DNA of 33,004 bases. Source: Paracoccaceae bacterium. GTDB lineage: Bacteria; Pseudomonadota; Alphaproteobacteria; Rhodobacterales; Rhodobacteraceae. Positions within the stretch are counted from its first letter, which is position 1. Each line of letters begins with the position of its first letter. The DNA is taken from positions 1 through 33,004 of the forward strand of contig JAASTF010000002.1 in the NCBI GenBank assembly GCA_021767525.1. Direction: 5' to 3'. Positions 15,348 through 33,004 of the stretch are shown one piece after another. A model generated the notes under the pieces. The model searched no databases, was not told the origin of the DNA, and saw nothing but the letters and a program-made list of their open reading frames with translations. The translations under genes were made by a program, and so were the position numbers.

Positions 15348-16043
15348 TCAGCAGTCGCGGCCGGCGGCCCGTGCGATCATGCGGCGCAGCACGGGGTCGA
15401 CAATCTGCCGCGTTGCCCGGTCGGTCGGGTGCAACCCGTCGGGAAAGGCGTCTTGCAGCCCCGCCGCCCGCCAGCGCGGATACAGATCGATCAGCGCCAG
15501 ATCGCGTGCGTCGGCGATCTGCCCAAGTTGGGCATAGTGCTGCGCCAACCAAGGCCGCAGCCATCCGCGCACCCCATAAGCGGGTGACATGGTCATCAGC
15601 GCGATCCGCGCCTCGGGCAAGTCGCGGCGCAGACTATCCAGCATCGCATTCAAGCGCGTCCGCGCCCGATCCAGTGACAGGCCGTCGCGCAGATCGGCGT
15701 CGTTGACGGCAAATTCGATCAGAACAAGGTCGGGCCGATGCGCCACGACCTGTGCCACCTGGTCCAGCGCCCAATCGGTCGTCGCCCCCGGTTGCGCGAC
15801 GCGCTGCACCGCGACCTTGTGGCCGAAACAGGCGGCCAGGTCCCGGGCCAGCCGGTCGGGCCAGGCATTGCCGGCGCTCAGCGAGGTGCCGAAGGCCACG
15901 ATGCGCTGCGGCGTCACGCCATCCGGCCAGGCCGTGATGGGGCGGTCACGCGCGGTGGTATCGCTGCGTCCGGGCAAAAAGGCCACGGCGCTGGCAATCG
16001 CCAAACACCCTACCACGAAGGCCACGATCAGCGGCAGCCGCAT
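15348..16043 (-). CDS. SGNH/GDSL hydrolase family protein
   Basis: Block I variant IVAFGTSLSAGNAWP; LVLIEFAVNDAD; block V DGLHPTDRA; N-terminal TM/signal anchor. Confidence 0.82.
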   Translation of the reverse strand: MRLPLIVAFVVGCLAIASAVAFLPGRSDTTARDRPITAWPDGVTPQRIVAFGTSLSAGNAWPDRLARDLAACFGHKVAVQRVAQPGATTDWALDQVAQVVAHRPDLVLIEFAVNDADLRDGLSLDRARTRLNAMLDSLRRDLPEARIALMTMSPAYGVRGWLRPWLAQHYAQLGQIADARDLALIDLYPRWRAAGLQDAFPDGLHPTDRATRQIVDPVLRRMIARAAGRDC

Positions 16044-16049
16044 CGCGGC

Positions 16050-18596
16050 CTACCTGTCTTTCAGGCGCAGGTCGGCATTGCGCACCGTCAGGCTGCCTGA
16101 ACGGTCGCGCCCGACACGCTGCACCGCGATCGACAGAAGGCGGTGCCCGTCCAGCAGCGGGCCCAGTTCGAAATCGACCTTGCTGCCATTCTTGACCACG
16201 CCTTGCCATCGCTCAAGCTCGGTCACCTGTTCGCCCTTGGCGCGGGCGACCAGCCTGATCTCGGTGCTTTCGGTGCCATCCAGCCCGACCTCGAAGGAAA
16301 AGCCGTAGGTCGCGCCGCCGGTCACGGGCAGGGGACGCGACAGGCGAAGCTGGTTGTTCGAGCCGCCCGACTCCACCGCGGCGCCATCCGACAGAACCTT
16401 CCAGCTGCGCGAATGCCGCCAAACCACCGGAAGGTCGGGCAACAGCGCGCCGGTTTCGGTGTGATCGACGCTTTTGGCCTGGCTTAGCGGGCCAGTGCGG
16501 CCGGTTTTCTGCGACGGGTCATAGGCGTCTATCGCCTGGCGCAGCACGACCGCTTCGGGGGACGATGTCACGTCTTGGCCGATGTAGTCCTTGACCCCCC
16601 ACCAGTCATTGCCGCTGGTGCGGCTGTGCGACATGAAATGCATGTATTCGTTGAGGCCCTTCTCGCTCATGATTTCAAGCCACCGGCCCAGCACGCGGGC
16701 GCCCGCCGGGCCGGTGTTGAAGGCTTCGTACATGTCGAACGCGCCATCGACCGGATAGGACACGTGGCTGCCGCCCTCGTATGCCACGAAATTCAGGCCA
16801 AGCGCCTGGGCGTAATCGGCGTGGGCATCCAGCCGGAAAGATGTGCTTAGCGCCAGGCCGGACCGCAGCCCGGTAAAGATCTGCCCGAACAAGGTGCCGC
16901 CATAGCCCACAAGCTGCGTGTGAGCGATCATCTGCTCCAGGCTGCGCGTGGGCAGGCGATCGAAGATCAGAACATCGGTCCAATCGGCGGCGCCTTCGCC
17001 GCGATATTGCAGCGCGCGACCGTTCAGCCGCAGCACGCGCGGCAGGTCAGTCAGCGGGTCAAGCCCAGCCTCGATATCCGCCCAGATCAGCCGTGTCACC
17101 GCGATGTCCAGGTCGTCAGACCACGGCACGTCGCGGCGCGGGGCGCGCAGGTTTTCGGCTGTCAGCGTCACCAGCTGCTCGGGGTTCGACCCGAAGATCA
17201 GCCAATCGGCCAGCGCCTCGGCCTGGGCCTCGGCGCCGTCGACGGTTTTCAGGACATGCTGAGCCACCACCGCGTCGGGGCGTCTGTCGGCCAGGGTGCC
17301 GCCGAAATACATCGCGACCGAGTAATCCGTCACCACCTCAAGCGGCAGGGGTGTGCCGTCATTCATCTCTTGCGCTTCGCGGGCCTGGAAATAGCGCACA
17401 AGGTAGCCATCGCTCAGGCTGCCGCCAGGCCGCAAAGACCCGGAAAACGCCCAGCCGGGCGCGATGAACCGCGCTTCTCGGCCGGCGTCGTCGAACACGT
17501 CGCCCAGGATCTTGTAAAGCTGCGGGCCGCGATAGGCCGACCATTCGACGGTGGCCCAGGGGCCGACCTCGTCGAAATCCTCGAACGTGGTTTGGGCCAT
17601 GCGCAGGGAATAGCGATAGCCCTCGAAGCCGCGGGCGCTGTTGAACAGCTCGTTGCCGTATTCCCACCGCGCCACCAGCCCGTCATCCAGGTTTTCAGCG
17701 ACATAACGGCCCAGCGTGGCGGCACGGGTGTCGGTGATGTCGACAGGCAGCGCGATCCACGGGTCTGCGCCGGTCAGGTTCGACAATTCGACGATGTGCG
17801 AGATCGGCGCCGACACCTCGAAACTGCCCTCGTTTCCGGCGCCGCCGGCATGATTGTTGAACGTGTAATAGTCGGGCCCGACATAGCGCTGTTCGGGCGT
17901 GGGCGATGTCCAGTTCGAGCCCTCTTCGCCCCAGCCGTTGCCGTCTTCCTGAATCCGGTTGGCGCGCATCCAGTCCATGAACCGCAGCGTGCCATAGCCG
18001 CGCAGATCGGCCAGCAATTCGGGGGCGAATGTCTCGCCGGCGCGAAACGCCGCGAGATGGGTGTGATGGACCAGTGCAAGCGATCGGATGTGCGTTCCCG
18101 GGCGCACGTCGTGGATTTGCATCCGCAGCCGGGCCAGCTCTTCGTTGTTCACGTCGAAATTCACGTCGACGAACCAGTACTCGGTGCCCTGTATGTTTTC
18201 GGTCGGCAGAAAGGCGGCGTTCAACTTGCCCGTCAGCTGACCATCGGTGCTGCTGTGGATCGAGAACTGCCCCGCGCCGCGTCCATACAGGCGAAACATG
18301 CCGGTATGCGGCGCGATTCCGGCCACGTCGCGCGACCGGATCAGAAGATCCGAGGCGACATAGCGTTCTGGCACCACGGTGGGATAGCCGTTTTCATCAT
18401 AAGCGATACGGCCCGTGTTCGACGGATCGTCCCATGGGCGCGCGCCTTTCAACTGGTTGACGTAGATCACCAGGTTGTTGGCGCGGCTGCCCGAAAACCA
18501 GGCGACGTTGGCGCCGATTTCAGTCGACGACGCCTGTTGCTCGAAAACCGTAAGCTGCGGGTCATGGGCCAGCGCCTGGGCTAGGTCTGTGTCCAC
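16050..18596 (-). CDS. Large putative glycoside hydrolase-like protein (GH-A clan-like TIM barrel plus C-terminal beta domain)
   Basis: PWIALPVDITDTRAATLGRYVAENLDDGLVARWEYGNELFN (strand-4 NE-like) and LGLNFVAYEGGSHVSYP (strand-7 Glu-like). GTG start with GGAGG Shine-Dalgarno; in-frame TGA 18 nt upstream. Confidence 0.6.
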   Translation of the reverse strand: MDTDLAQALAHDPQLTVFEQQASSTEIGANVAWFSGSRANNLVIYVNQLKGARPWDDPSNTGRIAYDENGYPTVVPERYVASDLLIRSRDVAGIAPHTGMFRLYGRGAGQFSIHSSTDGQLTGKLNAAFLPTENIQGTEYWFVDVNFDVNNEELARLRMQIHDVRPGTHIRSLALVHHTHLAAFRAGETFAPELLADLRGYGTLRFMDWMRANRIQEDGNGWGEEGSNWTSPTPEQRYVGPDYYTFNNHAGGAGNEGSFEVSAPISHIVELSNLTGADPWIALPVDITDTRAATLGRYVAENLDDGLVARWEYGNELFNSARGFEGYRYSLRMAQTTFEDFDEVGPWATVEWSAYRGPQLYKILGDVFDDAGREARFIAPGWAFSGSLRPGGSLSDGYLVRYFQAREAQEMNDGTPLPLEVVTDYSVAMYFGGTLADRRPDAVVAQHVLKTVDGAEAQAEALADWLIFGSNPEQLVTLTAENLRAPRRDVPWSDDLDIAVTRLIWADIEAGLDPLTDLPRVLRLNGRALQYRGEGAADWTDVLIFDRLPTRSLEQMIAHTQLVGYGGTLFGQIFTGLRSGLALSTSFRLDAHADYAQALGLNFVAYEGGSHVSYPVDGAFDMYEAFNTGPAGARVLGRWLEIMSEKGLNEYMHFMSHSRTSGNDWWGVKDYIGQDVTSSPEAVVLRQAIDAYDPSQKTGRTGPLSQAKSVDHTETGALLPDLPVVWRHSRSWKVLSDGAAVESGGSNNQLRLSRPLPVTGGATYGFSFEVGLDGTESTEIRLVARAKGEQVTELERWQGVVKNGSKVDFELGPLLDGHRLLSIAVQRVGRDRSGSLTVRNADLRLKDR

Positions 18597-18733
18597 CGTC
18601 GGCTCCTCCGGTCAGGGTATATTGTTTCCAGACCCTGCCACCTGAAACTTGAATCACATCGTGTCTCGGATCAATCCCTGCCCCCTGGATAGGCAGTATT
18701 CCCCGAATTTTCCGCATATTGTTGCGCAACTCT

Positions 18734-18783
18734 GTGTCAATATTGGTGCTTTTCTTGACACTTTCAGGGGCAAAGCCCTTAAA
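18734..18783. promoter_or_regulatory. Candidate divergent promoter/operator region
   Basis: Perfect inverted repeat GTGTCAA (18734-18740)-N14-TTGACAC (18755-18761). Right arm contains TTGACA with CTTAAA 17 bp downstream on +; left arm gives TTGACA on the - strand. Confidence 0.45.
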
Positions 18784-18816
18784 CGTGAGGTCAAGTTCAG
18801 AAAGATTTTGCCGATT

Positions 18817-20916
18817 ATGAAAGCCAGTTATTTCTGCCGCCGAAACGGTGCGGTGTCCTGTGTTGTCGCGTTTTGTCTGCTGCTGCTGACCGCCGGTCTG
18901 GGCTGGGCGCAGGGCCGGTTGACGGTTGAAACGCCGATGCGCCCGAACATGGTGCTGGATAGCGGCGCAGCCTGGGGGCGCGACGCCGCGCATCTGCCGC
19001 TTGCAGGGCAGGCGCCGGCGGGGGCGCAGGTGGTCGGGCGGTTTGTCGGTGCCTCGGGTCAGGCGACGGAGTGGCAGCCGGTGGCAACCGCCGATGAGGC
19101 GGGGCACTGGCAGGGGCAGCTTGGCCCGGTGTCACGCGATGCCGGATGGGTGCGGCCGGAATTGCGCCTGTCCGACAGCGACACGGTCCAGTTCACCGGC
19201 ACGGCTCTGGCCGCGGGCCATGTGGTCGCGATCTGGGGCCAATCCGAGCTGCATCGCGCTGTTTTGCCCAGCCATGCCGCCCTGGACAGCGCCGCACCCG
19301 TGCGCGACCCGCTGGCCCTTCAGGTGACGTTTTCGCATTCAGCCAAGGACGATTACGGCGATCCTTCGCAGTTCGAGCACAGCGCGATCAGCGATCAAAG
19401 CCCGGTGTCGGCGCATATGGTGGCCCTGTCCAACATGCTGCACCAGGCCGCGCCGGGGCAGCGGTTTCACCTGGTTTTCCACACCCGGTCGGGCACCGGA
19501 TTTCAGCAGCTTTTGTCGGACGCGGCGCCGGGGCGTCTGTGGTCGGACGATCTGCGGCTGCATCGTTTCGCGCTGCCCTGGGGGGGCGCGCCGGGCCTGG
19601 CTTGGATCAGCTGGTACAACAGCGACTCGGGCCTGGGCGAGCGGTATGCCCAGGTGTTGTACGCGGCGATAACCGGCCAATCGGTCGAAGGCGCTGCGCT
19701 GGCCCCCGGTGATGTGCCCGAGGGTGGGCGGCATCCGCTGGACCACAGTTTTGCCACTCTTTACGGGCCGGACACGGTTTGGGCGGTGGCTGGGCCGCAC
19801 CGCTTCGAGATGAAGAAATTCAGCGCCCGAATCGCCGCCAACCGCGCCGGTGTCGATGCCTTGTTCGCCAGGCCAACGCCCGGCAATTTGCGCCGCGCGC
19901 TTGAACCTCTGACCTATCTCAACGGCAATCCGGCCTGGGGCAACGGTGATTTCAGCCATCCCGACACCAGCGCACAACCGGCCGATGGCATGGGGCGGCT
20001 GATGCTATTGATGGGCAATTCGATCCTGCGCCAGCTTGGTCTTGCGCAATGGCCCCTGCCGGCCTTCGATCACGCGCGCCTTAGCGCCGATGGCACCGAG
20101 GTGCAGGTATGGTCGGATGCGGGCCCCGTGACCACCACGCGTGCGGTGCAGACCGGGCAGGCCGACGCACCGGTTGCCGGGTTTCAGATCAATGGCGCCC
20201 CCGCAACCCAGGCGCATCTGCGCGATGGGCGGGTGGTGATCCGCTTCGATGCGCAGGGGCGTGCCTTTCCGCCGGGTGCGCGGCTGACCTTCGGCGCGGG
20301 CGGGATCGGCGCGCAGAATCTGAACCGCGATGTGCGCAAAACCCAGGTCTGGCGCGATTATCCCATCGTCGACGTGGGGCAGGTCGCGATCGAGGGCATC
20401 CCGGTCAAGGCGCAGACACCGCAGCATGTTCTTGATGTTTTGCCGCCGTCGCCCGACCTGACCATGCCGCTGCCCCAAGGCAACCTTTTGCCGCCGAAGG
20501 TGGCGGGCTTTGCCGAAACCGATCAGCCACCGGGTTGGGCTCGCTTCGGCGAGGGGTGGGAGCTGAACAGCGCCGAAAACACCGCCCGCGCGTCGTTGAC
20601 GGCGCGCGGCGGTTTGCAGGCCGTCATCCCCGAGGGCGCGGTGCGCGGCCTGAGCAACCGCCGGCTTGTTCTGACATTCGTGCCGCAGACCACCGGCAGC
20701 GACCCCGAGGTGCTGCGCGTCGCGGTCAGCGCCACGGGTGGCGCCAAATCGACTCTTTTCCTGGACGAGGTCACGCTGACCCCGGGCCAGCGTATGTATC
20801 TGCCGCTTGCCAAGACGCGGCAGGATGCGCCGGGGCTGATCATCCGGTTTCGTCGCCGTGGCGCGCTGACCGGGGACATTTCACTGACGGGTCTTGGCCT
20901 GTATGCCCTGCGCTAA
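18817..20916 (+). CDS. Secreted sialate O-acetylesterase/SGNH-like protein
   Basis: Signal peptide MKASYFCRRNGAVSCVVAFCLLLLTAGLGWAQ; WQPVATADEAGHWQGQLGPV...GHVVAIWGQSELHR (GQS block I-like); C-terminal beta-sandwich-like domain. ORF track start 18649 replaced with ATG 18817. Confidence 0.5.
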   Translation: MKASYFCRRNGAVSCVVAFCLLLLTAGLGWAQGRLTVETPMRPNMVLDSGAAWGRDAAHLPLAGQAPAGAQVVGRFVGASGQATEWQPVATADEAGHWQGQLGPVSRDAGWVRPELRLSDSDTVQFTGTALAAGHVVAIWGQSELHRAVLPSHAALDSAAPVRDPLALQVTFSHSAKDDYGDPSQFEHSAISDQSPVSAHMVALSNMLHQAAPGQRFHLVFHTRSGTGFQQLLSDAAPGRLWSDDLRLHRFALPWGGAPGLAWISWYNSDSGLGERYAQVLYAAITGQSVEGAALAPGDVPEGGRHPLDHSFATLYGPDTVWAVAGPHRFEMKKFSARIAANRAGVDALFARPTPGNLRRALEPLTYLNGNPAWGNGDFSHPDTSAQPADGMGRLMLLMGNSILRQLGLAQWPLPAFDHARLSADGTEVQVWSDAGPVTTTRAVQTGQADAPVAGFQINGAPATQAHLRDGRVVIRFDAQGRAFPPGARLTFGAGGIGAQNLNRDVRKTQVWRDYPIVDVGQVAIEGIPVKAQTPQHVLDVLPPSPDLTMPLPQGNLLPPKVAGFAETDQPPGWARFGEGWELNSAENTARASLTARGGLQAVIPEGAVRGLSNRRLVLTFVPQTTGSDPEVLRVAVSATGGAKSTLFLDEVTLTPGQRMYLPLAKTRQDAPGLIIRFRRRGALTGDISLTGLGLYALR

Positions 20917-20936: not shown

Positions 20937-22106
20937 TCAAAGCTTTTGCATTTCCTGTGCGATCAGGTCTGTATAGCGGTCAAGCCGCTCGTCCACGCGG
21001 GTCAGCGCGGTGTCGATCTCGGCCAAAAGGGTCGGGCGGTTTTCGAATCCGTCCTTTATCCGGGCCAGGATCTCGTCTGCGCTGTCGCTTTTGCAATCCA
21101 CCGAGCGGTCATATCCCAGCGTGCCGAAGACGCCGCGAAACTTGCGGCTATAAGCCATCGGGATCACCGGCACACGCGACGAAAAGGCGGCGATGGTGGC
21201 GTGCATCCGCGCCCCCATGAAGAAATCCAGACCCGCGATATAGGTTTTCGCGTCGATCGGTGATTTGAAAAAGGGTGACACGATCGTGCCGGGGAATTCG
21301 CGGGCAAGGGCCTCGTTCACGCGGTGATCGTCTTCGACCGCGATTTCATGCGATTGCACATGTCCGACCAGGTGCAATTCCACCCCGTCCTGCTGCTGGA
21401 AATACCGGATGATGCTGCGGATCAGCGCGGGATAATCGGCGGCAAGGCCGAATTGGTTCGATTGCGTGTAACCGCCGTTGAACAACAGCCCCGACACGTT
21501 CAGCCCCACCCGGATCGGCGCGCCATCCGCACGCGGCGCGGGCGGATCATAGGGCAGGCGCATGGCCACATCCGTCGCTTCGAGCATGTTTTCACGGACA
21601 CCCAGATCCGACAAAAAGGCGGTCGTCGGCGCATCGCGGCTGACCACCAGCCTGGACCGGCGCAGCGCCCAGCGGGCCAACCGCCGGGCATAGTGGGTTT
21701 CGAACGGCCCCACCGTTTGCGGCGACAGGATCAGGGGCTTTCCCATGCGCAGCGCGTGCAGCTTGGTGGCCCAGATGGTGAAAAACCGTTTCGGCCCGTA
21801 GATGTCGGTAAAGCTGTCGCCGCCGCCGATATCCACCACCATATCCGCCCGGCGCAGGCCAGCCGCCAATGGGCCAGACGGCGCGGGGATGTGCCGGGTG
21901 CGGAAATGCAGGTTCTCGATATCGTCCCAATGGCCGTAATCGGGGCGGGGGTCTTGCCAGCTCATGGCCAGAAAATGTGGCGTCACGCCAGCCTTCGCGG
22001 CGGCGGCGCGCAGGATTTCGGCATTGCTGAGCGTCAGGGCACCGACGCCCAGGTTGTCGGAATTCATCGAGTGCCACAAAAGTGCCAATGTAATGGTGCG
22101 CGTCAT
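20937..22106 (-). CDS. Polysaccharide pyruvyl transferase family protein
   Basis: NSDNLGVGALTLSNAEIL, DMVVDIGGGDSFTDIYG, GKPLILSPQTVGPF, SRDAPTTAFLSDLG, FFMGARMHATIAAFSSRVPVIPMAYSRKFRGVFGTLGY. Confidence 0.92.
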   Translation of the reverse strand: MTRTITLALLWHSMNSDNLGVGALTLSNAEILRAAAAKAGVTPHFLAMSWQDPRPDYGHWDDIENLHFRTRHIPAPSGPLAAGLRRADMVVDIGGGDSFTDIYGPKRFFTIWATKLHALRMGKPLILSPQTVGPFETHYARRLARWALRRSRLVVSRDAPTTAFLSDLGVRENMLEATDVAMRLPYDPPAPRADGAPIRVGLNVSGLLFNGGYTQSNQFGLAADYPALIRSIIRYFQQQDGVELHLVGHVQSHEIAVEDDHRVNEALAREFPGTIVSPFFKSPIDAKTYIAGLDFFMGARMHATIAAFSSRVPVIPMAYSRKFRGVFGTLGYDRSVDCKSDSADEILARIKDGFENRPTLLAEIDTALTRVDERLDRYTDLIAQEMQKL

Positions 22107-22206: not shown

Positions 22207-23469
22207 GTGCCATCTGCTGCTGAAAAAGAAGCAAATTCGCCACGGCATCGGCCACAGCCCACGCAGGTCGCGCCGTCGCTGGTGCGCGTTGCGACGGGGG
22301 ATTTATGCGCAGGCTGCGGCGGGTGCGCGGCGATCGCGCCCGGCGCGATCCGGATGGCCGAGGATGCCGCCGGATACCTGCGCCCGGTTCAGACAGGGAC
22401 GGTCAGCACCGAACAGGATGCGCTTATCGCGGCGACGTGCCCGGGCCTGACGCAAGAGGTTGACGGCGCCGGGCGCACCGACCATGCGCTGTGGGGGCCG
22501 TTCGTGGATATGCATTCGGGCCATGCGCTGGATGACGACCTGCGTTTCGCCGGGGCGTCGGGCGGGGCGCTGTCGGGGCTTGCCGCCTGGCTGATCCGCT
22601 CGGGCGAGGTTCAGGCGGTGGTGCAGATCAAGGCCGACCCGGACAACCCTGTCGGCAATGTCGCCACCATCAGCCGCACCCGTGACGAGGTTCTGGGCGC
22701 CGCCGGCTCGCGCTATGCGCCAGCGGCCCCACTGTCGATTCTGCCGGATTTGCCCGACGATCTGCAGCGGCTTGCCTTTATCGGCAAGCCTTGCGATGCC
22801 GCCGCGCTGCGTGCCATGTGCGCGCGCGACCCGGAATTGGCGCGTCGGTTTCCCGTGATCCTGTCATTTTTCTGCGCCGGCACGCCGTCGCTGGCCGGGG
22901 CGCGGGCGGTTCTGGCGGCGCTGAACACCGCGCCCGAACAGGCGCGTGCCTTTCGCTACCGCGGCAACGGCTGGCCCGGCCTCGCCACGGTAACCCGCGC
23001 CGACGGGTCGACCGAGAGCATGAGTTACCACGACAGCTGGGGCAAAATCCTGTCAAAGCACGTGCAGCATCGGTGCAAGATTTGTGCTGACGGGACCGGC
23101 GCCGCGGCGGATATCGTCTGCGCCGATGCATGGGAAAGCGACGCGGACGGCTATCCCCTGTTCGACGAGGCCGAGGGCTGCAGCCTGATCGTCGCCCGGA
23201 CGCAACAGGGCGCCGCGCTGCTGGACCGTGCCGCCCGGGACGGCGCCATCACGCTGGGCCCGTTCGACGTGCCGCAATTGACGGCGATCCAGCCGGGGCA
23301 GCGCAATCGGCGCCGCGCACTGGCGGCACGGTTGGCGGCGCTGCGCCTGATCGGCAAACCCGTACCGCGCTATCGCGGGCTGCGCCTGCTGGCGGCCGCG
23401 CGGCAGGCGCGCCCCGGTTTCCTGCTGCGCAATTTCCTTGGCACCCTGCGCCGCGGGCTGCGAAAATGA
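22207..23469 (+). CDS. Coenzyme F420 hydrogenase/dehydrogenase beta-subunit (FrhB)-like Fe-S protein
   Basis: LCAGCGGCAAIAPGAIRM cysteine motif; FAGASGGALSGLAAWLIRSGEVQAVVQI; GKPCDAAALRAM; FFCAGTPS; HRCKICADGTGAAADIVCADAW. GTG start. Confidence 0.88.
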   Translation: MPSAAEKEANSPRHRPQPTQVAPSLVRVATGDLCAGCGGCAAIAPGAIRMAEDAAGYLRPVQTGTVSTEQDALIAATCPGLTQEVDGAGRTDHALWGPFVDMHSGHALDDDLRFAGASGGALSGLAAWLIRSGEVQAVVQIKADPDNPVGNVATISRTRDEVLGAAGSRYAPAAPLSILPDLPDDLQRLAFIGKPCDAAALRAMCARDPELARRFPVILSFFCAGTPSLAGARAVLAALNTAPEQARAFRYRGNGWPGLATVTRADGSTESMSYHDSWGKILSKHVQHRCKICADGTGAAADIVCADAWESDADGYPLFDEAEGCSLIVARTQQGAALLDRAARDGAITLGPFDVPQLTAIQPGQRNRRRALAARLAALRLIGKPVPRYRGLRLLAAARQARPGFLLRNFLGTLRRGLRK

Positions 23470-23503
23470 GCGGGTGCGACAGCGTTTTGGCGGGGTGGCC
23501 GTG

Positions 23504-24922
23504 ATGCTGCGAAAGGTGCTGATATTGCTGTCGGGCAATGCGGCGGCCTCGGTCCTGTTGCTGGCCCGCAACCTGATCGTGGCGCGTTTGATCCCGGTCG
23601 AGGATTACGGCATCGCCGCCACCTTTGCCGTCACGATGGCGCTGGTGGAAATGTCGACGCAGTTCGGCCTGCAACAGCAGATCATCCAAAGCAAGGACGG
23701 CGAGGACGCCCGATTTCAAGCTGCCTTGCAGGGCTTCCAGGTGCTCCGCGGGATTATCGCCGGCGCGGTTCTTTTCCTGCTGGCCCAGCCGATTGCCAAC
23801 TTTCTGAACATCCCCGAGGTCGCCTGGGCCTATCAGGTGATGGCGCTGATGCCGGTGTTTCGTGCGTTGCAGCATTTCGACATTCACCGGCTGAACCGCG
23901 CGCTGCGTTATGCGCCGATGCTGCTGACAAGCGGTGTGCCCGCGCTGCTGTCCTTGTTGGCGGTGTTCCCGCTGGCGATGTGGCTGTCGGATTACCGGGT
24001 GATGCTGTTCGCGCTGTTGCTGCAAGAGGCGCTGGGCGCGATCACGTCGCACGTGATGGCCGAACGCCCGTATCGCCTGGTGCTGGACAGGCGGATCATG
24101 GCCGGATCGCTGCGATTTGGCTGGCCATTGCTGGTTAACGGGGCGCTGTTGTTTCTGGTGATGCAGGGCGACAAGCTGATCGTCGGGCGAGAGCTGGGCA
24201 TGGTGGCGCTGGGGGTGTTCGGCATGGGCATTACCCTGACGCTGACACCCACGCTGATCCTGGCCAAGACCACGCAGAATTTCTTTTTGCCGCAGCTGTC
24301 CGCGATTGCCGAAGGCGGCGACAGCGCGCGGTTCGACAGCCTGGCGCGTGCGTCGTTCCAGGCTGCGATGTTGAATGGTGTCGCGCTGCTGCTGGGCGTC
24401 TTTGCCATCGGCATTCCGTTTGTCGATCTGCTGCTGGGCAGCAAATATGCGGCGCTGCATCCGCTGTTGATCTGGCTGGCCGCACAACAGGGCATACGCG
24501 TTTTCAAAAGCGGACCGTCCACCGTTGCCGTGGCGCGCGCGGTGACCTCGAACGCGCTTTATCCCAATATCGTCCGTGCCCTTGGGCTGCCGGTGGCCTG
24601 GGTCGTCGTGGTGAATGGCGGCGGAATCTGGCACGTGATCGTCGTTGCGCTGGTGGCCGAGGCCCTGGGGTATGCCGTGGCGCTGTTCCTGGCGCGGCGC
24701 CGACTGGGCATCGCCCTGGGGCCGTTGCTGCCCAGCCTGCTGCTGACGGCCGCGCTTTTCGCCGCAGCGTTGGTCGTGCCGGCCTCGGGGCGCGATGCAG
24801 CGTCGCTATGGCTGAACGCGGCTTTTGTCCTGGCTGCGCCGGTGGGGCTGCTTATGACGATGAAAGACCTGCGCCAATATGCCAGAAGCCACCTGGGCGC
24901 CCGGGCCAAAGGAAAGGTGTAA
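23504..24922 (+). CDS. Oligosaccharide flippase / Wzx-like polysaccharide transporter
   Basis: Multi-TM protein; LLARNLIVARLIPVEDYGIAATFAVTMALVEM; C-terminal LLGSKYAALHPLLIWLAAQQGIRVFKSGPS, typical of MATE/MVF Wzx relatives. Confidence 0.88.
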   Translation: MLRKVLILLSGNAAASVLLLARNLIVARLIPVEDYGIAATFAVTMALVEMSTQFGLQQQIIQSKDGEDARFQAALQGFQVLRGIIAGAVLFLLAQPIANFLNIPEVAWAYQVMALMPVFRALQHFDIHRLNRALRYAPMLLTSGVPALLSLLAVFPLAMWLSDYRVMLFALLLQEALGAITSHVMAERPYRLVLDRRIMAGSLRFGWPLLVNGALLFLVMQGDKLIVGRELGMVALGVFGMGITLTLTPTLILAKTTQNFFLPQLSAIAEGGDSARFDSLARASFQAAMLNGVALLLGVFAIGIPFVDLLLGSKYAALHPLLIWLAAQQGIRVFKSGPSTVAVARAVTSNALYPNIVRALGLPVAWVVVVNGGGIWHVIVVALVAEALGYAVALFLARRRLGIALGPLLPSLLLTAALFAAALVVPASGRDAASLWLNAAFVLAAPVGLLMTMKDLRQYARSHLGARAKGKV

Positions 24923-25889: not shown

Positions 25890-27263
25890 GTGAGCATCGC
25901 CGAGACATCGCCCCCGCGCCTTGCCGCCGCACGCAGTGCCGAGCGGCTTTCGCCGGTGGTGACAATCTATATCCTGTGCGTTGTCTTTCCGATCTTCTTT
26001 TTCGTCGGCCCGCTTTACATGAACACCTTGCGGCTGATGCTGCTGGTGCTGGTGATCCCGCTTTGGTTCCGCCTGATCCTGGGCCACTACGGCCGCGTCA
26101 TCGTGACGGACTGGCTGTTCGTGGCCTATTTCGTCTGGCAGATCCCGGCGCTGGCTGTGAACAACCCCGAGGCGGTGGTGCAGCAGTCGGGCTCGACCGG
26201 GGCCGAGTTTCTGGGCGGCTACCTCGTTGGGCGCGCGTTCATTCGTGACCGCGGCGCCTTTATCGCGATGTGCCGGCAATTGTCGCTGATCGTGTTGCTG
26301 ATCCTGCCCTTCGGCCTGCTTGAGGCGCGCACCGCCGACCCCTTCATCCCGGACCTGATCCGCAGTGTGCCCGCGCTGTTTTCGGTGCCCGATGTGAACA
26401 TACCCGGGCGGATGGGGCTGAACCGCGTGCAGAATACCTTTACCCACCCGATCCATTACGGGCTGTTCTGTTCGGTGGTGTTTTCTTTGAATTTCATAGC
26501 CTTGCAAGACAAGATCGGAACCACCTGGCGCTGGCTCTCCAGTATGCTGATCGGTTTGGGGTGTTTCCTTGCGCTGTCTTCGGGGGCATTGCTGGCCTTG
26601 CTTTTGCAACTGGGCCTGATCGCCTGGGCGTTCGTGTTGCGCAAGGTGTCGTGGCGGTGGTGGCTGCTGCTGGGGCTTGGGGTGCTGGCCTATGTGGTGG
26701 TCGATCTTCTGTCGAACCGGACGCCCCTGCGTGTCTTTCTGAGTTACGCCACCTTTTCCGCGCACACCGCTTACTGGCGGTCGCTGATCTTTGAATACGG
26801 TTTCCAGAACGCGCTGGACAACCCGCTGTTCGGGATCGGCCTGAACGACTGGGAGCGCCCCGACTGGATGTACGGCGACAGCATGGATAATTTCTGGCTG
26901 GTGGTTGCCGTGCGCTATGGGTTTCCCGCCGCGATCTTTATCATCGCGGGATATCTGTATGTCATCTTCAAGGTGATGTTCCGCGAGGTCGACAGCGACC
27001 CCGAGCTTTGGAAAATCCGCCGCGCCTGGGTGTTCAGCTTTGTCGGGCTGACCTTTACCTTGTGCACGGTGCATATCTGGGCAAATGTCTATTCCTTCGT
27101 GTTCTTCATCTTTGCCGCGGGTATCTGGTTGATCGATGCCAAGCCCAAGGGCGGCGAAGAGGACGAGACCGACGAAACCCCGCAGCGTCCGTCGCATCTG
27201 CCCTTCAGCCGATTCCAGCACACGCCGCGCGACACGCGCCGGCCCGCGCCCGCGCTGCGCTAG
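25890..27263 (+). CDS. O-antigen ligase/Wzy polymerase-like membrane protein
   Basis: About ten predicted TM segments; periplasmic loop FEYGFQNALDNPLFGIGLNDWERPDWMYGDSMDNFWLVVAVRYGFPAAIF typical of Wzy/WaaL. Confidence 0.82.
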   Translation: MSIAETSPPRLAAARSAERLSPVVTIYILCVVFPIFFFVGPLYMNTLRLMLLVLVIPLWFRLILGHYGRVIVTDWLFVAYFVWQIPALAVNNPEAVVQQSGSTGAEFLGGYLVGRAFIRDRGAFIAMCRQLSLIVLLILPFGLLEARTADPFIPDLIRSVPALFSVPDVNIPGRMGLNRVQNTFTHPIHYGLFCSVVFSLNFIALQDKIGTTWRWLSSMLIGLGCFLALSSGALLALLLQLGLIAWAFVLRKVSWRWWLLLGLGVLAYVVVDLLSNRTPLRVFLSYATFSAHTAYWRSLIFEYGFQNALDNPLFGIGLNDWERPDWMYGDSMDNFWLVVAVRYGFPAAIFIIAGYLYVIFKVMFREVDSDPELWKIRRAWVFSFVGLTFTLCTVHIWANVYSFVFFIFAAGIWLIDAKPKGGEEDETDETPQRPSHLPFSRFQHTPRDTRRPAPALR

Positions 27264-29441: not shown

Positions 29442-30875
29442 ATGCGTAGCTTGTTCGCTTTACTTTTGGCCAGCACCTGGGCTGTGTCGGCATCCGCCGC
29501 AACGCAGACGCCCGGCGATACAAGCGATTCCCAACTTCTCGAAGCCGAGGCCGAGGTTGCCGCCGGCGACCAGCGCGCCGGTTTTTCCTGGACGCCCTCC
29601 TTCGGGTTCAACCCGATGCGGCTGCCTGCCCAGGATGCCGAGCCCTTCGTGGGGCTGGTCGGCGCGCCTTTGCCCGGGGCCGGCTACGCCTGGCACCCGG
29701 AATTCGGCCTGATCTCGACAGCTGATGGAGAGGATGCCAACCCCGCGGAAAACGCGATCGACTGGTCCGACAGCGGTAATTCCGTGCGTGCGGTTTTGTG
29801 GAGCGATGCGTATCTTGAAATTCTGGTCGACCAGATGGCGCCGCCTGACGGTTTGACCGTCACCGAGGTGATTGACGTGTCGCCAGACGGCAAGATCCTG
29901 GGCAAGGCAGAAACTGCCGACGGGACCAGCGTTTTCTTCACCTGGGCCCAAGCCGGGCCGATGACCATCGTTCAGCCCGCGGATGGCGCGCAGATGGTGG
30001 GCATGTCGCGACTTGCCACTAGCGGCCATGCGGTGGGGCAGGTGGCAACCGGCGATGAGCAGCCGCTTATGGCCGCGCTTGTGGCGCCCGATGGCAGTGT
30101 TGCGCCGCTGCCCGGACCGGGTGGCGCCGGATCGGTTGCGAATGGCGTGAACAGCGCGGGTGTCGTGGTTGGCGCGTCGACCAGCGAACCGCCGACCGCC
30201 CTGATCTGGGGGCCGGACGGGCAACCGATGGTGTTGGAAACCATGATGTCCGCACCGTTGCCGGACGGTTTCAAACTGCTTGGCGCCGACGATATCAACG
30301 ACGCGGGCGAGATCGTGGCCACGGCCCTTTCGCCCAGCGGCGCGATCCACGCAATCAAATTGACGCCCGATGCCCAGGCACCAGGACAGTACAAGCCGCG
30401 CCCGATTGGCGAGTTGTTTCCGCAGGGAGGGCCGCGCCCGACGCAGCCGATGTCGCTGTCGAATGCCGGGGCCATCGCGGGGGAATGCGCCTTTGGCGCG
30501 CGGGATTGTCCGACCGGTGACATGAGCTTTGCCAACCTCGACACGAATATCACCAACTTTGGCGGGTCGGGCCTGGGCGGTCAGCCCGGGACGTTCCTGC
30601 CGCTGGTTACCGGCAAGGGGCTGAGTGCATCGGGGCGTGGCTTTGGCCAGCCGGGTGCGGGGCTGGGTGGCGATTCGCCTTTTGATCGCTCGCGGCCCGA
30701 TTTCGGTTCACCGAACTTTCCCACGCTGACATCGACCTCGACCGACGATAACGCCGGACCGCTGCCGACACCGCTTCCCGCCGCCGGGGCGCTGTTGCTG
30801 TTCAGTGTTATCCTGCTGCGTTGGCCCGCGGGTCTTGTATCTTATGTGCGAAAAGCGGTTGATCGCACGCTGTAG
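29442..30875 (+). CDS. Secreted HAF-repeat-like protein with VPLPA-CTERM-type C-terminal sorting signal
   Basis: Signal peptide MRSLFALLLASTWAVSASAATQ; repeated VNSAGVVVG / INDAGEIVA / LSNAGAIAG units; Gly/Ser/Pro-rich linker; C-terminus PLPTPLPAAGALLLFSVILLRWPAGLVSYVRKAVDRTL (motif, TM helix, basic tail). Confidence 0.75.
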   Translation: MRSLFALLLASTWAVSASAATQTPGDTSDSQLLEAEAEVAAGDQRAGFSWTPSFGFNPMRLPAQDAEPFVGLVGAPLPGAGYAWHPEFGLISTADGEDANPAENAIDWSDSGNSVRAVLWSDAYLEILVDQMAPPDGLTVTEVIDVSPDGKILGKAETADGTSVFFTWAQAGPMTIVQPADGAQMVGMSRLATSGHAVGQVATGDEQPLMAALVAPDGSVAPLPGPGGAGSVANGVNSAGVVVGASTSEPPTALIWGPDGQPMVLETMMSAPLPDGFKLLGADDINDAGEIVATALSPSGAIHAIKLTPDAQAPGQYKPRPIGELFPQGGPRPTQPMSLSNAGAIAGECAFGARDCPTGDMSFANLDTNITNFGGSGLGGQPGTFLPLVTGKGLSASGRGFGQPGAGLGGDSPFDRSRPDFGSPNFPTLTSTSTDDNAGPLPTPLPAAGALLLFSVILLRWPAGLVSYVRKAVDRTL

Positions 30876-31389
30876 CAGCGCCCATTTCGATCAGATCGGC
30901 GCCTGTCAGGCGGTGTAGCGTGGTCAGGCTGAACCGCGCATGGTCCATGTACCAACCTTGCAACGCGCGCGGATAGTGCTGCGCAATGATGATCGACACG
31001 CGGTCGAACAATGCCTTTTCCAGCGGCACGCCGCGGCGTGACGGACCGTGAAAGCCGAAAACCGTGTTCGGCATTACGCAGACATTCTTTAGCCCCAACA
31101 GCATCGTGCAACTGGACAAGCAGGCCGTGCCGCGAATTTCGACGCGGCGATTTGCGGCGCGCAGGGTCTGGATCGCCAACAGACGCTCCTTGACCGAGCC
31201 GCCGTAGTCGGTGCGCACGATATACGGCAAGGGGTGCGCCGGGGCCGAGGCCCGGTCGGCGGGCTTCAAGGGCGGCGCCGCATGGCCGGGTGCGATCATC
31301 AGAACGGTCAGGACGGTCGCCAACGCCAGCGCCAGCACCGCGCGGGACAGTCGGCGGATCGCCCAAAAGGTTTTGCCCAAGCCTTTCAT
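30808..31389 (-). CDS. Periplasmic ClpP/crotonase-fold-like protein
   Basis: Signal/TM segment LALALATVLTVLMIAPGHAAP; YGGSVKERLLAIQTLRAANRRVEIRGTACLSSCTMLLGLKNVCVMPNTVFGFHGPSRRG resembles ClpP-like SSC and FHGP motifs. Confidence 0.6.
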   Translation of the reverse strand: MKGLGKTFWAIRRLSRAVLALALATVLTVLMIAPGHAAPPLKPADRASAPAHPLPYIVRTDYGGSVKERLLAIQTLRAANRRVEIRGTACLSSCTMLLGLKNVCVMPNTVFGFHGPSRRGVPLEKALFDRVSIIIAQHYPRALQGWYMDHARFSLTTLHRLTGADLIEMGAATACDQPLFAHKIQDPRANAAG

Positions 31390-31507: not shown

Positions 31508-33004
31508 TCACTCTGGAATGAAATTGGGCAGCCGCTTCATCGCTTCGGCCATGAAGCTTTGCAGCCGTTCATCGGCCACGCTGACGGGCTGACCCTGATC
31601 GATCTCGGTGACAAAGCGCACGATGGCGCCATCGGTCCGGCCGCGTGTCAGCCCGTCTTTCAGCACAGAGATCTTGGCTGCGAAATCGTTGGTCATGCGC
31701 GTGCCGCGCTGTTCGAACCAGTAATAGACCAGCTGCTGTTCAAAGCCTTTTTCGATGATCGCGCGGTTCACCGTAAAGGTGCCGTATACCGTGTCGGGCA
31801 AGCTGACATCGTATTTTTCCAAGGAATAGATTTCCCAGCCCCCGGCGGGCAAACACACCTCGGGTGAGTGCAGGCCCTCGCCCTGGGTCTGGCTGGCATA
31901 CCAGGCAGAAAAGAACTGCACCACGTCGCCTTCGCCGGACTTGATGTATACGCTGTTGATGTAATCCGTAGCACCCAGCACGTCTTCGACATCGTCATCC
32001 AAGGGCAGCATGGTGCCCAGCCAGCCGTCGATTTCACGAGGAAACAGGCCAAAGCTGTCGCGGAACGGCAGCGGCGTTTCCGGCCGGGGCGTCAGCACGG
32101 CGACCGATGCCAGGGCCGTTATGACAAGCCCGGCGATCATGTTTCGGCCGACCGGGCCCAGGTGCAGAATGCGTGCCAGATGCGGCTGCATTCCGCCAAA
32201 GTCGAAATCGATGGTTTCGCCAAGCGTCTTCGGGTTCGGGGTCATGCGTTGCAGGATCAGCGCGGTGATGAACAGGATCGTGACGCAAGCGCCAAAGATC
32301 ACCCAGCCTTCGAAAAAGTGCAAAAAGCCCTCGGCATGGCCGATACCGTAGCTGTTCACCAGAACGCCGATCACGCCGATCCGAAAGGCATTCATCAAGA
32401 CGGTCAGCGGCGCGGCCATCACGAACAGCACCAGCTTGTGCCAGAACGGCCCCCTATACAGGATCGCCATCAGATAGCTGAACGACAGGATAGGAAAGAG
32501 ATAGCGCAGCCCTGAACAGGCTTCGGCCACAAGCAACTGATAGGGGCCCAGGTCGATGATGTTGCCATCAAGATAGACGGGGATGCCGAACAGGCGGATG
32601 ACCCAAACGCCGATCTCGGACGACACCGCCTGCAGGAACGTCGTCAACTTCCAATACACGAATTGCGGCAGCGGCAGCATGAAGATCAGGTGCAGCACCG
32701 GCAGCTGATGCATCCGCCCCTCGGCCCAGCCCATCGTGACCAGCACCACGCCCGACACCCATATGATGAAGGCATAGGTCACGATATCGGGGATGCTGGT
32801 CAAATTTCCCAGGATCGCGATGCACGCGGCCAGCAAGATAACCGCCACCCCCGGCCAACGGCTGGACGGGCCGCCGGATGGCACGGCGGGCTTGTCCCGC
32901 AATTCGCGCAGGAACAGGTAAAGCGAGATCATGGGGATCAGCGGGCCGTGGCTGTATTCGGGCGTGATCCAGGCGCGGCCCAGCGATACGAAGCCGCTCC
33001 AGAA
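31508..33004 (-). CDS. xrtD: Exosortase (XrtD-like, VPLPA-CTERM type) fused to an EpsI domain; 5' end beyond window
   Basis: Exosortase Cys/Arg/His blocks [52 protein letters not shown]-terminal EpsI-like [13 protein letters not shown]...[14 protein letters not shown]. Reading upstream of ATG 32932 gives an uninterrupted [24 protein letters not shown], so the gene is truncated by the window edge. Confidence 0.88.

Follow-up and report, generated by a model that had tools for sequence, protein, structure and literature searches.

A clan GH-A-like protein without a signal peptide, from an undescribed family, in an XrtD exopolysaccharide locus of a Paracoccaceae bacterium

The window, that is, the whole stretch of DNA analyzed here (33,004 nt, a complete contig of a marine Paracoccaceae bacterium), encodes an 848-aa protein in the midst of genes for exopolysaccharide (EPS) synthesis. 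The protein is predicted to be a glycosidase of the clan GH-A type, and its family is undescribed in the copies of Pfam, NCBIfam and the PDB that we used. We recognize no known type of export signal in it. Our best explanation is an EPS glycosidase which acts outside the cytoplasm after export by a Sec-independent or unrecognized route, and we give this explanation about an even chance.

Results

The open reading frame occupies positions 16050..18596 of the minus strand. The initial annotation had described a GTG start with a GGAGG and an in-frame TGA 18 nt upstream, and all of this is confirmed: the GTG is at position 18596, the ribosome-binding site at 18605..18609 (minus), 8 nt from the GTG, and the TGA at 18612..18614 (minus). 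The reading frame is coding. Over 841 aa its protein is 62% identical to an ortholog in Tritonibacter multivorans CECT 7557 (L031, 7962-10556), and the two genes differ by 0.28/0.24/0.52 per codon position. Both are therefore under purifying selection. The ortholog has 864 aa, starts with TTG instead of GTG and has its own stop codon 21 nt ahead of the start. Such orthologs are rare. The T. multivorans protein is the sole one found, with no further ortholog at E ≤ 1e-20 in 397 genomes of the bacterial family (396 genera; the window's own apart) and none at E ≤ 1e-30 in the remaining 17 genomes from the genus of T. multivorans.

Signal peptides were called throughout from hydropathy and inspection. 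Within the first 45 aa the maximal hydropathy over 11 residues is 0.75 for the GH-A-like protein and 1.03 for the ortholog, and by this measure neither has an N-terminal signal peptide for Sec export. A hydrophobic leader upstream of the GTG is absent in all three frames. The earlier claim that the protein has no N-terminal export signal thus holds, also for the ortholog. We considered a frameshift or a mis-set start that masks a signal peptide, the former having been named at the outset as what would overturn the claim, and rejected both as no frame encodes a signal peptide. With an ortholog that is likewise leaderless, and with purifying selection on both genes, a sequencing frameshift is excluded for practical purposes. 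The protein also does not have the features of an XrtD substrate, a signal peptide together with a C-terminal VPLPA-CTERM tail; its C-terminus reads ...SLTVRNADLRLKDR.

The two glutamate motifs, EYGNELFN (residues 312-319) and VAYEGGSH (residues 604-611), had been proposed to be placed like the catalytic pair of clan GH-A enzymes, and conservation and structure prediction support this. Residues E312, N315, E316, Y606, E607, G608, G609 and H611 are the same in all 12 homologs compared, which have 21-62% identity. In 19 sequences, phage-like ones included, E312, N315 and E316 are at least 90% conserved and R205 on strand 2 and Y430 on strand 6 hardly vary. Judged from these alignments, the conservation of the motifs is far beyond chance. 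AlphaFold2 predicts a (beta/alpha)8 barrel for residues 26-691 (16524..18521, minus), with the strands 26-31, 203-206, 278-283, 309-313, 375-378, 424-433, 602-612 and 650-654 and with a beta-domain inserted after strand 1 (about residues 72-177). As is typical of clan GH-A, an Asn-Glu pair, N315-E316 (17649..17654, minus), directly follows the predicted strand 309-313 at the end of barrel strand 4, and a second glutamate, E607 (16776..16778, minus), lies within the motif YEGGxH on the predicted strand 7. The former is the proposed general acid/base and the latter the proposed nucleophile. In GH-A enzymes an Arg on strand 2, a Tyr on strand 6 and a Trp on strand 8 are active-site positions, and we take R205, Y430 and W666 to be these positions. 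Where the family commonly has a His on strand 3, the GH-A-like protein and its ortholog have Val285 instead.

Superposition on GH-A enzymes had been suggested as a check, and its outcome is divided. The models have eight alternating strand/helix units in the GH-A strand order, whereas the global superposition is poor and the mean pLDDT is 60.5 and 66.1 for the models built from 11 and 19 sequences, with most core strands at 70-96. When the barrel of the first model was compared with the PDB by Foldseek, clan GH-A enzymes were among the best matches (GH79 heparanase, GH5 mannanase, GH51, GH2). The matches of the second model were dominated by the C-terminus, which resembles a carbohydrate-binding module (CBM). 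Because of this second search and the low global TM-scores, we regard the barrel fold as probable rather than proven. E316 and E607 are the predicted catalytic pair on this barrel, and the enzyme reading is strengthened.

Neither the protein nor its family matches a sequence in Pfam, NCBIfam or the PDB: no GH profile of Pfam or NCBIfam (GH5, PF00150, included) hits the protein or its homologs, and PDB sequence profiles gave no significant match. Membership in GH5 was rejected since hhalign of the family against the GH5 profile gave a probability of 0.3%; the layout is clan-like only. For a comparison with GH39, the 61 sampled genomes held no usable members. At the C-terminus, residues about 748-848 (16053..16355, minus) resemble a CBM4/22/16-like beta-sandwich by Foldseek against the PDB. 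In the alignment, this domain is not seen in distant relatives. The AlphaFold2 prediction makes the C-terminus the last strand of the folded domain, and conservation between the orthologs is 49% here versus 65-71% in the barrel.

The gene lies in an EPS locus, as had been assumed, namely in a Wzx/Wzy locus with an XrtD exosortase, and the setting is the same in T. multivorans. An SGNH/GDSL hydrolase with an N-terminal signal-anchor segment (15348..16043, minus; PF13472, 8e-22; hydrophobic N-terminus) begins 6 nt past the stop of the GH-A-like gene. In T. multivorans, where the gene order is the same, the distance is 4 nt. From this spacing of 4-6 nt in both loci, the two genes are probably translated together. 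The locus further encodes a polysaccharide pyruvyl transferase (20937..22106, minus; PF04230, 4e-25; 82% identity to L031), a Wzx-like flippase (23501..24922, plus; PF13440, 3e-44; longer possible start at 23438), a polymerase of the Wzy/O-antigen-ligase type (25890..27263, plus; PF04932, 9e-13) and the XrtD VPLPA-CTERM exosortase (31508..32932, minus; TIGR04152, 643 bits versus a cut-off of 400; frame open to 33004). The VPLPA protein here is a VPLPA-CTERM/HAF-repeat protein (29442-30875, plus), and positions 30808-31389 (minus) encode a secreted ClpP-like protein.

By protein identity the two loci match gene for gene: glycosyltransferase 84%, acetyltransferase 83%, pyruvyl transferase 82%, sulfotransferase-like protein 78%, Wzy 73%, XrtD 71%, Wzx 70%, GH-A-like protein 63%, SGNH hydrolase 56%, sugar transferase 54% and EEP-like protein 52%. 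The VPLPA-CTERM/HAF-repeat protein (39%) and the secreted ClpP-like protein (49%) diverge fastest. A 755-aa open reading frame at 18649-20916 (plus) has a signal peptide, a beta-rich C-terminal region and no match in Pfam or NCBIfam. It has no counterpart between pyruvyl transferase and GH-A-like gene in T. multivorans, where the former is immediately upstream of the latter.

The family was detected in 69 of 199 Rhodobacteraceae genomes (68 of 198 besides the window's own), a sample with mostly one genome per genus. Distant homologs have about 20-26% identity; they are also found on plasmids, under the annotation 'calcium-binding protein'. A Wzx homolog lies within about 9 kb in 12 of the 20 contexts of family members that were fetched. 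Two members are located in other XrtD loci (L074, L076); the co-occurrence of the family with XrtD is not general. There are also members in phage-like IMG/VR contigs, some of them fused to collagen-like, SGNH or repeat-rich sequence resembling tail fibers. XrtD loci, Wzx-type EPS islands and tail-fiber-like phage contigs all point to a polysaccharide substrate.

A conserved Rhodobacteraceae EPS island (L079-L084, L094, L097, L098) contains an NRPS-like protein of about 1550 aa, a protein of about 235 aa, an SGNH, SGNH-GH or GH protein, GT2, GT4, Wzx, a Wzc-like protein and a sugar transferase; genes without a profile scan were named from inspection. On the phage-like contigs, the GH domain is joined to collagen-like repeats and SGNH domains in L071 (4663-11337) and to long repeats in L068 (1-5637), and L063 (5155-7578) carries the same domain. 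From their sequence, these three proteins are likely phage fiber depolymerases. A tblastn search of annotated phages with a phage-like family member as query gave no match.

Relatives of the GH-A-like protein are equipped with signal peptides, SGNH fusions or RTX tails, singly or combined. Seven SGNH-GH fusions (L018, L019, L021, L025, L026, L027, L094) begin about 9-14 aa before the GHSL block of the SGNH domain and lack a basic n-region. Where this island position is occupied by a form without the SGNH domain, that form has a signal peptide. Within the EPS-island clade of the tree, forms with a called signal peptide are intermingled with forms that have none, and well-supported branches force at least 5-6 changes of signal-peptide status there. 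The pair from the window and T. multivorans sits on a very long branch of 3.6 changes per site, so that caution against long-branch effects applies. We rejected the blanket reading that every relative without a called signal peptide is cytoplasmic, since the tree mixes SGNH-GH fusions that have no signal peptide with GH forms that have one, and the fusions open with a hydrophobic segment which may itself act as a signal.

Cysteine is absent from the 848 aa of the GH-A-like protein and from the 864 aa of the ortholog. Nor does it occur in any of the 11 other members for which no signal peptide was called, against a background of 1.03% in soluble leaderless proteins, and nearly the whole family is Cys-free. 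In the background set, 5 of the 73 soluble leaderless proteins with 400 aa or more have no cysteine; at least two of these 5 belong to the same family, and homologs are not independent. Cysteine is present in some signal-bearing proteins of the window locus. The Cys-free composition argues for export.

Discussion

We suggest the following role for the GH-A-like protein. It would be a retaining glycosidase of the clan GH-A type, with E316 as acid/base and E607 as nucleophile, and its substrate would be the acetylated, pyruvylated and probably sulfated EPS of the XrtD-associated Wzx/Wzy locus. The C-terminal domain could hold the EPS polymer and the co-transcribed SGNH esterase may work alongside. 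The site of action is most likely outside the cytoplasm, where the polymer forms. We propose a Sec-independent or still unrecognized export route because the protein has neither a signal peptide nor an RTX tail.

The main rival is that the protein stays in the cytoplasm and serves as an editing enzyme which acts ahead of the Wzx flipping step, trimming or recycling repeat units linked to undecaprenyl or intermediates that have stalled. Cytoplasmic action on a lipid-linked intermediate was one of three implications that the initial annotation had drawn from the missing signal peptide. Both orthologs are leaderless despite 38% divergence, the T. multivorans gene follows the cytosolic pyruvyl transferase in a single gene run, and RTX repeats and a linked type I system are absent; all this would fit. 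Against it stand the absence of cysteine in both orthologs, the exported relatives and the CBM-like domain, which suits a polymer that exists only after Wzy. The protein has also changed faster than the cytosolic enzymes encoded in the locus: its 63% identity to T. multivorans lies between theirs (78-84%) and that of the signal-bearing proteins (39-56%). Moreover, we know of no Wzx/Wzy locus with an established cytosolic glycosidase. Cytoplasmic action thus survives as a rival but is in our view unlikely, and extracytoplasmic action is favored. The more specific proposal of a cytoplasmic GH-A-type editor or recycler of undecaprenyl-linked EPS units, from an undescribed family common to EPS islands and phage tail proteins, seems rather unlikely.

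Extracytoplasmic action could come about by type I secretion without RTX repeats, with an atypical signal and a PrtD-type transporter encoded elsewhere. Leaderless secretion of the classical type, which the initial annotation had considered, is not supported by the sequence: PF00353 has no match in the GH-A-like protein and no RTX nonapeptide was counted in the ortholog, so that an RTX substrate of a type I system was rejected. A double-glycine leader (GFGG) in the ortholog was dismissed as it is not conserved in the GH-A-like protein. Nor did we find a type I system nearby, within the reach of the two contigs: the window, a whole contig, has no ABC and MFP genes for one, and the 88-kb contig of the ortholog has no type I transporter. 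A PrtD-type ABC protein above the family cut-off is nevertheless encoded in both genomes, on other contigs, and RTX-bearing family members exist. The rhizobial EPS glycanases PlyA and PlyB leave the cell via the type I system PrsDE (PMC2275737). Yet the C-terminus is predicted to be a strand of a folded domain and is poorly conserved, and the transporter gene is not linked. We therefore hold this route to be improbable.

That the protein is a catalytically dead, lectin-like relative which binds EPS or its precursor is very improbable: Val285 in place of the strand-3 His in both orthologs and the very long branch could speak for it, but both glutamates, N315, R205, Y430 and H611 are kept under purifying selection. 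A non-enzymatic role, also raised at the outset, is unlikely because the glutamate pair is fully conserved.

The family was detected in roughly one in three of the Rhodobacteraceae genomes sampled, repeatedly in EPS loci, and it extends to phage-like contigs. None of the copies of Pfam, NCBIfam and the PDB that we used includes this recurrent family, so new EPS depolymerases are likely to be found in it. With the leaderless pair one can ask cleanly whether an EPS glycosidase works in the cell on lipid-linked units or beyond it, following an unrecognized export step.

The nearest known systems share some of these features. The ortholog of T. multivorans has the XrtD EPS locus, the missing signal peptide, the CBM-like tail and the Cys-free composition in common with the GH-A-like protein. 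The SGNH-GH, GH and GH-RTX proteins of Rhodobacteraceae, annotated as 'calcium-binding protein' or hypothetical, have the same predicted barrel and the same glutamate motifs and many belong to Wzx-type EPS loci; they differ by a signal peptide, a fused SGNH domain or an RTX tail, and they have no C-terminal CBM-like domain. Glycosidases of the PslG type are clan GH-A hydrolases encoded in the locus of the polymer they cut, and PslG has a Sec or anchor N-terminus. The GH-A-like protein, likewise encoded in the locus of its proposed substrate, is by contrast leaderless and has no match to GH39 in Pfam. PlyA and PlyB, whose type I export was predicted from RTX-type features that the GH-A-like protein does not have, are comparable as alphaproteobacterial glycosyl hydrolases that cleave EPS.
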